This document shows positions 3,642 through 35,021 of a stretch of 35,543 nt of DNA, piece by piece. How positions within the stretch are numbered: the first letter of the stretch is position 1; each line of letters begins with the position of its first letter. The position numbers and the translations under genes were made by a program. The notes beneath the pieces were generated by a model. It did not search any database. It was not told the origin of the DNA and was given only the letters and a program-made list of their open reading frames with translations. The stretch is from a virus. The stretch is from IMG/VR virus record IMGVR_UViG_3300031669_000121, positions 1 to 35,543 of that record; one strand, 5' to 3'.

Positions 3642-4967
3642 CTATTGATTTAAATCATTATTACCAATTAGTTGTCGTCCAGCACTATAATATCCTGGAC
3701 TTGCCTTTTGAAGCTGTTTAATAATCCAAGGATTTTGAGCCATTTTCACTAATTGTGGCATCGCATGTTGCCCTAAATATGTGCCCGCCCCAATTCCTCC
3801 CAATGTACCTAAAATCGGATTAATCATATGACCACCAACAGTCGAAGCGGCAATTGGTAATCCATATTGCATTGCTTTTCCCATAGAAACTTTATTTTTT
3901 ATATCATTTAATGTATTAGATAAAAAATGTTCATTAGGTATATTTTTCTTTTCTTTAGAGGATTTAATAGCGTTTATTAATTTATTAGGTTCTATTTCTT
4001 CAACATTTCCTTCAACAATATTTGCTAATTTTGGAGATGACAAATAAGGCATTCTTTCTTGCTTATGAATTCTTGCACCTTCTAAATAAGAATTTTTAGC
4101 ATCTTTATCATGAGATTCTAATGAATTTAGAATATCATTTTTTAATGATTCTCTGCTTTTTTCTAATGCAAACAATCTATCTTGTCCAATAGCATCTAAT
4201 GATTTATTTTTATATAAAGGTATCATTTCAGAAAACATTTGACTTTGTAATTTATGAGCATTCTTTATAGTAGGATTTTCAATGAATTTTTCATGTAAAA
4301 ATTTTACTTTTTGTCCAACATAATCTTTATATTTATCATACATTTTAATATATTTATCTGAATTTAAATTTTCATCACCATATTTTTCCATAACTGGCTG
4401 ATATTGTTTTCTTTCTTTATCAACAACATTTTGATAATTTGATTTTATGTCATTTAATTTTTCATTTGTATATTTCAATGGTTTTATCATTTCTGCTATT
4501 CCAGAAATGGCATGAAGTGGAGATGTAGCCGCCTCCAAAATAGAATTAAATTTTAAATTATTTTCCAATGATTCTGGAAGAGATTCTTTATTATCTTCCC
4601 TACCCATTTGCATAGCTGTACTACTGGCAACGCCGGAACCAATTCTACCCGCAGCATTTGATAAATATGGAATTAATCCTTTTGCTGCTATTAATTCGGG
4701 CTGATAAGCCGATGCCAATCCACCGCCGGCTTCTAATGCAGCTTTACCAAATTTTTCAGGAGTATTTAAACCTTGTTTCATCATACTTAAATCATTAACC
4801 GATTTAGTGGATTTTAAAAAATTACTTACTAAATCAGAATTATTATTAATATCTGGATTATTCTTTGATAAATAATAAATATTTAATTGATTTTCTATTT
4901 CATTATCAGACATACTTTCTGGGAATTTTACAATACTATTGTCTGGTAATCTTATCTTTTTAGGCAT
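3642..4967 (-). CDS. Internal virion / DNA-ejection protein (gp16 position)
   Basis: A 441-residue protein beginning MPKKIRLPDNSIVKFPESMSD, a head seen on many internal virion proteins. Residues about 170-330 are long charged helices. A hydrophobic Gly/Ala-rich segment near residues 365-405 (AASTVGGHMINPILGTLGGIGAGTYLG, shown in pieces) could cross a membrane. It is third in a row of three genes occupying the place of P22 gp7, gp20 and gp16, which are ejected with DNA to form a channel through the cell envelope. The start overlaps the upstream stop by one base (TAATG), indicating translational coupling. The assignment is by position and composition. Confidence 0.6.
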   Translation of the reverse strand: MPKKIRLPDNSIVKFPESMSDNEIENQLNIYYLSKNNPDINNNSDLVSNFLKSTKSVNDLSMMKQGLNTPEKFGKAALEAGGGLASAYQPELIAAKGLIPYLSNAAGRIGSGVASSTAMQMGREDNKESLPESLENNLKFNSILEAATSPLHAISGIAEMIKPLKYTNEKLNDIKSNYQNVVDKERKQYQPVMEKYGDENLNSDKYIKMYDKYKDYVGQKVKFLHEKFIENPTIKNAHKLQSQMFSEMIPLYKNKSLDAIGQDRLFALEKSRESLKNDILNSLESHDKDAKNSYLEGARIHKQERMPYLSSPKLANIVEGNVEEIEPNKLINAIKSSKEKKNIPNEHFLSNTLNDIKNKVSMGKAMQYGLPIAASTVGGHMINPILGTLGGIGAGTYLGQHAMPQLVKMAQNPWIIKQLQKASPGYYSAGRQLIGNNDLNQ

Positions 4968-23479: not shown

Positions 23480-23892
23480 AGTTCATTACTCCTCATAATA
23501 TACGCATCTTCCACGGCTCTCTCATGAGCTATCTTAGAATTAATAATTTCATTTGCTGCTGTGTCGTAATCATTTTTTTCTAATGCAGTTAACATTTTTT
23601 TAAACTGAAGGAGCCCATTCACCCCGCAGTTAAAACACAAATCTATTAAAACGGCTTTGCGAGGAACACTTAAATATTTGTAAAAATGTAATAAAGAATC
23701 TAGCTTAGTAACAAAAAAAGTAACGTCTTCTTCACAAGTTAAAGAAGCGATATTGAATGACATACCATTAGCTTGTAAGTTGTGACCAAAGCCTATTGTC
23801 AAATTTCCCTTGATATCTGGATAAATAAATTGTTTATATCGCTCGTGTTTCTTGACCAAATTTACAGCTTTTTCTAAGTCTGAGGGTATCAT
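23476..23892 (-). CDS. Endolysin, T4-type lysozyme (GH24)
   Basis: A 138-residue muramidase that cuts peptidoglycan. With the start at MIPSDLEKAV (ATG 23892, AGGA eight bases upstream) the catalytic triad is Glu17, Asp26 and Thr32 in KKHERYKQF...YPDIKGNLTIGFGH, with exactly the E-8-D-5-T spacing of T4 lysozyme. A second signature is LIDLCFNCGVNGLLQFKKML. There is no signal peptide or SAR anchor, so it needs a holin. The N-terminus overlaps the upstream zinc-ribbon gene by 59 bases. Confidence 0.92.
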   Translation of the reverse strand: MIPSDLEKAVNLVKKHERYKQFIYPDIKGNLTIGFGHNLQANGMSFNIASLTCEEDVTFFVTKLDSLLHFYKYLSVPRKAVLIDLCFNCGVNGLLQFKKMLTALEKNDYDTAANEIINSKIAHERAVEDAYIMRSNEL

Positions 23893-24062: not shown

Positions 24063-24467
24063 TTAAACAATACGAAGCTTATTGATAAATATTTCAAGTT
24101 TTCCATCCTTTACTTTGTCCAATTTTTCAACATAAAGTTGAATTATTTGAGAGTCATTCTCATAAACTTGAGCAAATTGTAGTGCGTCTAAAGTTGCCTT
24201 TAAGATGTTGTCGATGTCGCGAATACGGTCATCTGGGGGGTAAACATTTATTGCGACGCCTATTTTTTCTTTTCCAAAAGATACATTTCTGTATGAGATA
24301 CTATCTTTCACTGCATTACATACTAATGCCTTAAAAGTTTTTATGTAAGGGTTTGAATATAATCCATTTTTTCCAGTTTTCCAGTAGGAATTAACGGTTA
24401 TTTTTTTGGGGTATGGCAATATAGCAAAAAAATCATATTTTTTAGTTGAAATAATGGTGCTAAGCAT
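24063..24467 (-). CDS. rusA: RusA-type Holliday junction resolvase
   Basis: A 134-residue endonuclease from ATG 24467 (AAAGGA six bases upstream; the GTG five codons earlier would place that site inside the gene). Active-site block 'YPPDDRIRDIDNILKATLDAL' has Asp84, Asp86, Asn87 and Lys90, the family DxDN..K, followed by 'YENDSQIIQLYVEK' with Asp105. It resolves recombination branches before packaging, complementing the Sak4/SSB pair encoded on the plus strand. First gene of the lysis-side leftward operon. Confidence 0.88.
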   Translation of the reverse strand: MLSTIISTKKYDFFAILPYPKKITVNSYWKTGKNGLYSNPYIKTFKALVCNAVKDSISYRNVSFGKEKIGVAINVYPPDDRIRDIDNILKATLDALQFAQVYENDSQIIQLYVEKLDKVKDGKLEIFINKLRIV

Positions 24468-24569
24468 GTGAAATCCTTTCACAGTTATGATTACATGTCA
24501 TTCATTGACCTAATAAGCATTAAATTGTTTCACATAGAACAATATTTATCAAATATTTTAAATGATATA

Positions 24570-24597
24570 TTGAAAAATATCTTTCTATGCGTATAAT
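24570..24597 (+). promoter_or_regulatory. Sigma70-type promoter of the structured RNA and tRNA-Asn
   Basis: TTGAAA (24570-24575), 16-base spacer, TATAAT (24592-24597). The predicted start near 24604 is just where the run of RNA stems begins. No RBS or ORF follows for about 460 bases. Confidence 0.7.
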
Positions 24598-24603
24598 TTA
24601 TAC

Positions 24604-24960
24604 GGCTCTCGATGGTACGCGCGATAGTTTACTGTTTACTTATAGTTAGATTCACTTACAAATGACTCGCGAGCTAATTTGTAATAATCTACTTCTGATC
24701 AGGCTAGAGAGACAAGAATTTTTTGAGCGTTTCCTATCCGGCTCTTGGTGAAAAGATAGGTCTAGGCCACCATTAAATAGCCTGATGAACCAGTAACGCG
24801 GCGAAACATGCAAATGTAGCGTAGAGTCTTCCAGGGTGGCTACGATGAAGACACAGCCAGAGCAATATTTAATGGCATAATGAGATTAACGTTGATATAC
24901 GCGATATCAAGCACAATTCATATGTGTTCCTAACGCTAGGACAATCCTAGTTAGTCTCGC
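24604..24960 (+). ncRNA. Large structured noncoding RNA upstream of tRNA-Asn
   Basis: No ORF; G+C higher than surroundings. Stems read directly: 24647-24652/24686-24691 (TAGATT/AATCTA) continuing to 24656-24663/24677-24684 (TTACAAAT/ATTTGTAA), with a 13-base loop displaying the palindrome CTCGCGAG. 24698-24706/24778-24786 (ATCAGGCTA/TAGCCTGAT). 24733-24738/24755-24760 (CCTATC/GATAGG). 24806-24809/24814-24817 closed by GCAA, within 24796-24799/24819-24822. 24826-24831/24847-24852 (GTCTTC/GAAGAC). 24770-24777/24868-24875 (CCATTAAA/TTTAATGG) crosses the second helix as a pseudoknot. The 3' domain is 24882-24890/24950-24958 (GAGATTAAC/GTTAGTCTC) enclosing 24892-24898/24904-24910 (TTGATAT/ATATCAA), 24912-24915/24923-24926 and 24937-24940/24946-24949. 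Family unknown; it resembles GOLLD/ROOL in style and in lying beside a phage tRNA. Confidence 0.7.
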
Positions 24961-24973
24961 CAATTATCATTTT

Positions 24974-25045
24974 TGGCACGTAGCACAACGGTAGTGCGTC
25001 GGTCTGTTAAGCCGTTGGTTGTTGGTTCGAATCCAGCCGTGCCAG
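24974..25045 (+). tRNA. tRNA-Asn (anticodon GTT)
   Basis: Cloverleaf by eye: acceptor TGGCACG/CGTGCCA, bases 8-9 TA, D stem GCAC/GTGC with loop AACGGTA, anticodon loop CTGTTAA (GTT at 25006-25008), T arm GTTGG-TTCGAAT-CCAGC, discriminator G. The top anticodon pair is U-U. CCA is not encoded. Asn codons are frequent in this AT-rich phage, so it may support late translation. Confidence 0.92.
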
Positions 25046-25061
25046 TAATAATGAGTTTTTA

Positions 25062-25250
25062 ATGAACAAATCATATTATTCTGTTGAATATCAAATGACA
25101 AATCCACCAAAAGCTATTGGTATTTCTTTTATTTCAAATAAAAATGGTAAAAAAAATATTAAACCTATTCTCAATGTTATAGAAATAGATAGTAATAAAA
25201 ATTTTATATATGAACTCATATGCGATATATTAAATAACACATATGATTAA
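25062..25250 (+). CDS. Small hypothetical protein downstream of tRNA-Asn
   Basis: Sixty-two residues, MNKSYYSVEYQMTNPPKAIG onward, basic middle (NKNGKKNIKPILNV) and helical end. Starts 16 bases after the tRNA with only a weak ribosome site (AATGAG). Not recognised; could be non-coding. Confidence 0.4.
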   Translation: MNKSYYSVEYQMTNPPKAIGISFISNKNGKKNIKPILNVIEIDSNKNFIYELICDILNNTYD

Positions 25251-25267
25251 AGCTCTAAATTTAAACT

Positions 25268-25543
25268 TTAATCAACTTTAACACATACCCATTTATCCTT
25301 GTATTCCAGCGCATCAATAATGTCGCTATGATTAAATTTACACAGTTCTTGCAGTATTTCTTTGTCATCCTTATCTACATAAAACTTTTTAGCCGTTCTT
25401 TTAAGTTCATTGAACTTTATTGTTACATCTTTGTAACAATCTATCCAATTTTTATCAGAATGATAAACAATCTTGAGCTTTGCGCACACCGTTGCTCCTA
25501 AGTTTATTTGCGGTAAGATCACTTCCATGCGTCTGCTTTCCAT
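25268..25543 (-). CDS. Small hypothetical protein overlapping the replication gene
   Basis: Ninety-one residues (MESRRMEVILPQINLGATVC..., NELKRTAKKFYVDKDDKEIL) in a frame shifted from the replication gene, overlapping its last 89 bases; GGGAG lies seven bases before the ATG. Composition is coding-like. In the place where lambda-type phages keep the P/helicase-loader gene, but too short for that. Not recognised. Confidence 0.5.
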   Translation of the reverse strand: MESRRMEVILPQINLGATVCAKLKIVYHSDKNWIDCYKDVTIKFNELKRTAKKFYVDKDDKEILQELCKFNHSDIIDALEYKDKWVCVKVD

Positions 25544-26306
25544 GTTTCAGCTCCCATTCCTTGTTAGCTTCAAAAGTTGGATGTCCGGCACCATATTCTT
25601 TTACTGTACATCGTAAATTATTGTTATCTGTTTGTTTTATGTTTTTATTAATATAATTTGTTGTTTTTTTATTCACTTCAAATAGTCCTGTCCACCCATT
25701 CATAATACTTTGATTTATTATTTCGTTAATATCTTTACATTGTTCATGTAAAACGATTAATTTTTGTATAGCTTTTTTCTCAGATAAATTAGTCATTTGT
25801 TTTTTTATTTCTTTACGATGCTGTTTAAATTCATCCCAAAGCTCCCTAGGTAACCAATCAGGAAGAATAATTTCATCGCTGTTGTATATATGTTTTTTAT
25901 TATTTGTTTTTACATCTGGTATAGGTTTCCGATTTTTCAGAAATTCATTTCCGATTTCTCGGCTTTCCATTTCCGATTTTTCGGAAATGGGAATATTCAA
26001 TAACTTATGAGCATTATCAGTTAAAGCATACCAAGATGTGCGGTCATATTTTACAGAATTGTAATTTCCTTTCAAAATTAGATCAGAACTTATGCAATTT
26101 TTTATAACTGTTTCAATCTGACTTTTTGTCCAATATGGAAACAACATGGTATAGGCATCTACACTGTTGTATGTCCAATATCGACCATCATAGAAATGTT
26201 TATTATTAGCTATATTTTTTTGAACCCAAAAAACAACATTGTTTAAAAAAATAGCAACGTTTACGCCATACTTTTTTGCAATTTCTATATCGAAATGATG
26301 TTGCAC
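25455..26306 (-). CDS. Replication initiator, lambda O-type (helix-turn-helix), with internal origin
   Basis: A 283-residue protein starting at a GTG (26306) with AAGGA seven bases upstream. The N-terminal 100 residues (HHFDIEIAKKYGVNVAIFLN, YPYWTKSQ-like 'FPYWTKSQIETVIKNC', DRTSWYALTD) look like a winged helix DNA-binding domain. The second half has 'LPDWLPRELWDEFKQHRKEI' and 'QSIMNGWTGLF', a block common in phage replication proteins. Three iterons lie within the gene at codons about 106-127, as in lambda O. It would recruit the host helicase; no loader gene is recognised. Confidence 0.7.
   Translation of the reverse strand: MQHHFDIEIAKKYGVNVAIFLNNVVFWVQKNIANNKHFYDGRYWTYNSVDAYTMLFPYWTKSQIETVIKNCISSDLILKGNYNSVKYDRTSWYALTDNAHKLLNIPISEKSEMESREIGNEFLKNRKPIPDVKTNNKKHIYNSDEIILPDWLPRELWDEFKQHRKEIKKQMTNLSEKKAIQKLIVLHEQCKDINEIINQSIMNGWTGLFEVNKKTTNYINKNIKQTDNNNLRCTVKEYGAGHPTFEANKEWELKHGKQTHGSDLTANKLRSNGVRKAQDCLSF
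25926..25991 (+). repeat. Three origin-type iterons inside the replication gene
   Basis: Three direct repeats of exactly 22 bp, at 25926-25947, 25948-25969 and 25970-25991. Each begins TTTCCGATTT[TC]TC and forms a hyphenated palindrome. The third is perfect, TTTCCGA-TTTT-TCGGAAA; the others carry one to several mismatches in the right arm. AT-rich DNA flanks them. The layout matches the lambda ori, where O-protein dimers bind repeated dyads within gene O. Confidence 0.75.
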
Positions 26307-26328: not shown

Positions 26329-26356
26329 TTGACCAAATCCTATGGCACCGTATAAT
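26329..26356 (+). promoter_or_regulatory. Strong sigma70-type promoter opposing the replication operon
   Basis: TTGACC (26329-26334), 16-base spacer, TATAAT (26351-26356) on the plus strand, 23 bases upstream of the divergently read replication start. Predicted first base near 26363. Confidence 0.7.
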
Positions 26357-26362
26357 GGTAGG

Positions 26363-26437
26363 TGCGCATAGGTTCAGGAGAACCTGGTTTTTTGTCTTTA
26401 TGCGCTCTGGTTTGTCCCCAGGGCGCAGTTTCTCTTA
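26363..26437 (+). ncRNA. OOP-like small RNA (about 75 nt)
   Basis: Starts at the promoter above and ends after a ten-pair hairpin TGCGCTCTGG/CCAGGGCGCA (26401-26410/26418-26427, one U-G pair) followed by GTTTCTCTT, a plausible intrinsic terminator. The 5' half can form GCGCATA/TATGCGC (26364-26370/26399-26405) around GGTTC-AGGA-GAACC, which excludes the terminator hairpin, so two folds compete. Lambda OOP is a 77-nt RNA made opposite to the operon between cII and O; the position and size here agree. It stops about 60 bases short of the 77-codon gene unless read-through occurs. Confidence 0.6.
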
Positions 26438-26497
26438 ACGGTAAAACCGTATCTCATCAAGGTTAACCCCTACATAAATAATTCTCCACTATCTTTT

Positions 26498-34743: not shown

Positions 34744-34910
34744 ATATTTTATTTTGCGATGGCTGTGGCTATGTCTATGGCGATGGCAGTGGCGATGGCG
34801 ATGGCGATGGCAGTGGCAGTGGCAGTGGCAGTGGCTGTGGCAATGGCGATGGCTATGGCTATGGCGATGGCAATGGCTATGGCTATGGCTATGGCGATGG
34901 CGATGGCTAG
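34728..34910 (+). CDS. Gly-rich hexamer-repeat peptide (GxG[DYSN])
   Basis: Sixty codons: MASEINILFCDGCGYVYGDG then GSGDGDG-type dipeptides to the end. The DNA from about 34758 to 34908 is a run of GGC[GAT/AGT/TAT/AAT/TGT] hexamer halves. All variation is confined to the codons between GGC/Gly codons and the frame stays open, so a Gly-X protein is plausible. It directly follows and overlaps the DUF6948-like gene; similar Gly-rich peptides follow this gene elsewhere, as far as I recall. Confidence 0.5.
   Translation: MASEINILFCDGCGYVYGDGSGDGDGDGSGSGSGSGCGNGDGYGYGDGNGYGYGYGDGDG
34758..34909 (+). repeat. GGC-NNT hexanucleotide repeat tract
   Basis: About 25 tandem units of GGCGAT, GGCAGT, GGCTAT, GGCAAT or GGCTGT. 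GC-rich in AT-rich surroundings and prone to slippage by units of six, which would leave the frame intact. Confidence 0.85.
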
Positions 34911-34958: not shown

Positions 34959-35021
34959 ATTTTAGATCGCCACCATGGCTAGTGGGAGATTTTCTCTTTG
35001 ATCTCAATGGCGATCTAAAAT
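34959..35021. repeat. 14-bp perfect inverted repeat with inner hairpin
   Basis: ATTTTAGATCGCCA (34959-34972) and TGGCGATCTAAAAT (35008-35021) are perfect inverted copies; GAGAT/ATCTC (34986-34990/35001-35005) nests inside. The T-rich arm comes first on either strand, the reverse of an intrinsic terminator. It separates convergent rightward early genes and a leftward fibre gene. The loop contains CCATGGCTAGTGGG, the exact inverse of 22530-22543. Confidence 0.75.

Follow-up and report, generated by a model that had tools for sequence, protein, structure and literature searches.

The window, which is the whole stretch of DNA analysed (a virus record, 35,543 bases long, of a phage from environmental DNA), probably carries a phage non-coding RNA unit that is transcribed from its own promoter and not translated. 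The unit lies on the plus strand and comprises a predicted RNA spanning the 369-nt interval from promoter to tRNA, a tRNA-Asn gene and a 62-aa ORF, whereas the genes that flank it belong to the minus strand: rusA (24063-24482) on one side, and the gene at 25268-25543 together with rep (25455-26306) on the other. Among the genes of the window are those for a P22-type portal, a terminase large subunit, a RusA resolvase, a DnaD-like replication protein and a Sak4-like annealing protein. The gap bearing the RNA is the longest intergenic gap in the window, with a G+C content of 38% (41% for the RNA alone) against 19-36% for the other gaps of 100 or more bases, one exception aside. Long, G+C-rich gaps within AT-rich genomes are a signature used in ncRNA discovery (PMC6429828). 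A transcription unit that has its own promoter, lies next to a tRNA and is not translated is a fair reading of this locus.

Table 1 Features of the predicted RNA unit and its surroundings (positions in the window).
Feature	Position	Strand	Remarks
AT-rich imperfect inverted repeat	24533-24589		Overlaps the -35 element; possible operator; z -4.6 (+), -4.9 (-)
Predicted sigma-70 type promoter, TTGAAA-16-TATAAT	24570-24597	+	11/12 consensus matches
Perfect 15-base palindrome, CGTATAATTTATACG	24590-24604		Spans -10 element to predicted start; possible operator
Predicted untranslated RNA	24604-24972	+	Promoter to tRNA 5' end; without 60-aa ORF; without Rfam match
Hairpin of 6 + 8 pairs with 13-nt loop holding CTCGCGAG	24647-24691	+	z -1.56, weak
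Helix 24698-24706/24778-24786	24698-24786	+	9 perfect pairs
Helix 24770-24779/24866-24875	24770-24875	+	10 perfect pairs; crosses and abuts the 9-pair helix
3' four-way junction, closing stem 24881-24890/24950-24959 and three hairpins	24881-24959	+	CCA next
tRNA-Asn (GTT)	24973-25046	+	Directly downstream of the predicted RNA
62-aa ORF	25062-25250	+	Same strand as the RNA; no relatives found
AT-rich 9-bp hairpin	25244-25274		End of unit, between convergent genes; possible weak terminator

The promoter that the earlier note had placed upstream of 24604 is present, with its -35 element TTGAAA at 24570-24575, a spacer of 16 nt and its -10 element TATAAT at 24592-24597. A match of this quality is expected 0.013 times on the plus strand of the surrounding 138 nt and about 4 times over the whole window, both strands included. 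The inverted repeat that overlaps the -35 element has arms of 20 nt with 85% complementarity (24533-24552/24570-24589), and microRNA-type Rfam matches upstream of the RNA were dismissed as mere reflections of this repeat. Since the window contains 12 odd palindromes as strong as CGTATAATTTATACG, an operator at 24590-24604 is a hint and not proof. At the other end of the unit, a search for a standard intrinsic terminator gave no clear candidate.

The RNA stretch had also been described as free of ORFs, and this holds, with no credible reading frame over about 370 bases. No ORF of 60 aa was found within 24483-25061, where the longest stop-free frame, of 77 codons on the minus strand, contained no such ORF and matched no family. 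A protein hidden in the RNA stretch was rejected because the longer stop-free frames show no trace of a protein family.

Several other elements of the window were recorded in passing. A second plus-strand promoter (TTGACC-16-TATAAT) lies in the 26329-26440 region, opposite the rep leader; two strong hairpins (26363-26440, z -3.26) come after it, and the first of these runs into TTTTTT. By its appearance, this element would be a small antisense RNA controlling replication, and a blastn search in phages returned no relative of it. Inside rep, 2.9 copies of the 22-bp repeat TTTCCGATTTTTCGGAAATCCA resemble origin iterons (25926-25988). A GCGATGGCTATG-type 6/12-bp tandem repeat extends over 150 bases at 34756-34909 and folds more strongly than any other stretch of the window (scan z -7.4). 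A perfect inverted repeat, its 14-bp arms 35 nt apart, lies at 34959-35021, in a gap near the record end.

The fold statistics of the whole RNA did not bear out the earlier picture of a large, elaborately folded molecule. On the plus strand, the 369 bases gave a fold z of -0.06, with 44 of 100 shuffles folding as well, and the same bases on the minus strand gave 0.04, whereas E. coli RNase P RNA and tmRNA, computed alike with pseudoknots left out, reached -2.98 and -1.26, respectively. The greedy sum of the best stems, with crossing ones allowed, was equalled by 160 of 200 shuffles; the presence of two perfect stems of 9 or more pairs, reached by 11 of 200, was counted as not above chance. In an 85-nt z-score scan of the plus strand, stretches starting at 24568-24838 had z values of -0.8 to +2.3, and the RNA body (24604 to about 24870) folded no better than its shuffles and often worse. 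Support for structure in the predicted RNA is confined to its 3' end.

The 3' domain had been proposed as three hairpins closed by nine pairs; the arrangement is present, and its closing stem has 10 pairs, one of them G-U. Folded alone, the domain had a z of -3.57; the scan gave it -3.06, and about 3% of window stretches reached -3 there. On the minus strand its z was -0.58, and an excess confined to the plus strand matches the expectation for an RNA read from that strand. The domain has a cloverleaf topology, including a 5-bp stem with a 7-nt loop, and the CCA behind its closing stem is separated by 10 nt from the start of tRNA-Asn. We rejected a tRNA or tRNA-like identity because the T and D loop consensus is missing and no Rfam model matched, and ARAGORN in bacterial mode, at thresholds of 70% and 50%, did not call the domain a tRNA. 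As a separate observation, 24918-24928 within this domain is perfectly complementary over 11 bp to 25236-25246 at the end of the 62-aa ORF; both arms would share one transcript, and the match could be due to chance.

For the crossing stems of the earlier note, the complementarity is there, although the second helix has 10 perfect pairs and not 8. The 9- and 10-pair helices would constitute a pseudoknot if both form; their overlap by two bases means that only 8 + 9 pairs could form at once. Stacked crossing helices of 17 bp arose in 2 of 600 shuffles; the same value was attained, however, by 24 of the 587 overlapping stretches of native sequence from this AT-rich window (about 4%), and for this reason we regard them as suggestive only. 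The self-complementary octamer reported in a loop was confirmed as CTCGCGAG at 24666-24673, enclosed by hairpin 24656-24663/24677-24684. Palindromes of 8 nt are about as frequent in the RNA as expected (2 versus 1.8), whereas CGCG tetramers occur five times against 1.2 expected, a count reached by 2 of 1000 shuffles, with two of the five copies (24668 and 24900) in hairpin loops.

The tRNA cluster of phage T4 encodes two stable untranslated RNAs, RNA C and RNA D, which are made with the tRNAs and whose function is unclear. These are much shorter and demonstrated RNA species, whereas the RNA of the window is predicted. Infernal searches with the GOLLD, ROOL and all other Rfam models gave no match to the RNA. 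At the gathering score the region yielded tRNA only, and at E values up to 10 all matches were far below threshold and mostly outside the RNA. GOLLD (RF02032) gave no match, whether at the gathering score or with E up to 10, and ROOL (RF03087) gave none either, with E likewise up to 10. Searches with each family by name were also empty, the one for ROOL being run without a positive control genome. Two other candidates were discarded. For tmRNA, there was no Rfam or ARAGORN call at normal settings, and thresholds of 60% produced calls on both strands only, with tags unidentified. A hammerhead-like string in the core of the RNA can be read as CUGAUGA (24782-24788), GAAA (24803-24806) and a 4-bp stem III with a GCAA loop; stems I and II of such a ribozyme are not properly formed, and no Rfam match was obtained.

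GOLLD and ROOL are phage or prophage RNAs that often lie near tRNA islands and form homo-multimers (PMC12286853). The RNA of the window shares the location trait of GOLLD, being next to tRNA-Asn in a record with portal and terminase genes, and like GOLLD it is phage-encoded and predicted to be untranslated. It differs in length, since GOLLD often exceeds 800 nt (PMC12286853) against 369 nt here, in matching no model and in showing no fold excess. With ROOL it shares phage origin and a place beside a tRNA, and the multiple pseudoknots of ROOL may have a counterpart in the putative crossing helices; the ROOL model, however, has 574 positions, and the 369-nt interval falls short of it. Two lncRNAs beside tRNA genes of the staphylococcal phage K are abundantly transcribed (PMC9241854), and their comparison to GOLLD and ROOL likewise rests on place and not on family. 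They were likened to these RNAs by expression too (PMC9241854), whereas the RNA of the window is predicted from sequence. With no match to either family, a shuffle-level fold over most of the RNA and no homologue by which to judge covariation, the earlier assignment to the GOLLD/ROOL functional class is a guess that could prove right or wrong, and the likeness is one of position.

In the collections searched, the predicted RNA is an orphan. A blastn search of the stretch in phages and plasmids returned only tRNA matches or matches with E about 5. Among 59 relatives identified via portal and 2 via rep, none was found to carry the RNA; BLAST against the whole records of 50 portal relatives gave a best E of 0.013 over 16 bases. 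No counterpart emerged at the relatives' loci from nhmmer or from two covariance models (R1 and R2), which were built from one sequence each and hardly improve on a sequence search. IMG/VR scans with two exact RNA patterns yielded 2 and 11 matches, judged as chance by inspection and alignment, and scans with two tRNA-Asn patterns yielded two loci, both with ordinary genes upstream. Relatives sought via RusA and via the 62-aa ORF were not found, and portal relatives among genome contigs came from four metagenome bins of mixed taxonomy. Because no homologue was found, there is no sign of selection on the sequence or structure of the RNA.

Comparison with relatives indicates that the block is accessory in this phage group, since it is missing from both L007 and L072. 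In the syntenic relative L007, the next ORFs follow 8 nt after the homologues of rep and of the gene at 25268, and the RNA, tRNA and 62-aa ORF are absent; a different ORF occupies the place of rusA, with homologues of the gene at 23834 and of lysozyme next. In L072, rep and lysozyme are separated by nothing but a 200-aa ORF, and the block is absent there. Related phages have other kinds of tRNA, and no such RNA accompanies them. The L007 ORF at the place of rusA (4035-4424) lies between the same neighbours, is unlike RusA and, by reading, seems to resemble a VRR-type nuclease.

We favour, at somewhat less than an even chance, an accessory moron-like unit whose 5' RNA would be released when the tRNA is processed and would then persist as a stable ncRNA. 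RNA polymerase would start near 24604 and read through tRNA-Asn, and RNase P would then cut at about 24972/24973, the tRNA 5' end, so that a 5' RNA about 369 nt long is freed. Near the 3' end of this RNA, the compact four-way junction may slow 3' exonucleases, and the RNA could therefore accumulate as a stable phage ncRNA during infection. The same arrangement could also be a plain, functionless 5' leader of a tRNA-Asn/62-aa ORF operon that is degraded after processing, its long complementarities being due to chance. The chance-level stem total and fold energy, the lack of conservation and the contiguity of stretch, tRNA and ORF on one strand are what such a leader predicts; a functionless leader of 370 bases would nevertheless be unusual for a compact phage genome, its G+C lies above that of nearly all other gaps and the 3' domain reaches a z of -3.6, and we consider it unlikely, though worth serious weight. 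Non-functional DNA, for example a decayed gene imported with a tRNA cassette, would fit an accessory block that is missing from L007, has no homologue and whose body shows no fold excess. The longer stop-free frames, however, bear no trace of a protein family, and a well-formed promoter with palindromes and the 3' domain also speak against decay, making this reading rather improbable.

The remaining readings assign the RNA a more specific role. A compact functional relative of GOLLD and ROOL, pseudoknotted and self-associating into multimers through its CTCGCGAG loop, would agree with the position before a tRNA, with the CGCG enrichment and its two loop copies, and with stacked crossing helices at 2 of 600 shuffles; symmetric kissing loops are indeed found in OLE and GOLLD (PMC12286853). 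Against it stand the lack of Rfam similarity and homologues, a length of half to two-thirds that of GOLLD and ROOL, a fold stability without the excess seen in the controls and 8-nt palindromes at their expected number, and we hold it very unlikely. Equally doubtful is the idea that the RNA represents a new class: a compact phage RNA, about 370 nt long, built on a stacked pseudoknot core with a cloverleaf-shaped 3' cap, that would be released from a tRNA precursor and associate via palindromic CGCG loops. The opposite orientation of the unit to rusA and rep, together with the second plus-strand promoter and its hairpins opposite the rep leader, could suggest a regulatory antisense RNA, complementary to read-through from the rep side towards rusA and limiting the downstream minus-strand genes. 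A minus-strand transcript across the region is not known, however, and antisense action could do without a G+C-rich insert that carries a tRNA, leaving this explanation with little probability.

To our knowledge, few lineages have yielded untranslated RNAs next to phage tRNA genes, and the function has been settled for none of these RNAs. A single copy with neither relative nor transcript does not yet show repeated evolution. If our reading is true, another such RNA, smaller and unrelated in sequence, would suggest that phages have repeatedly evolved RNAs beside their tRNAs.
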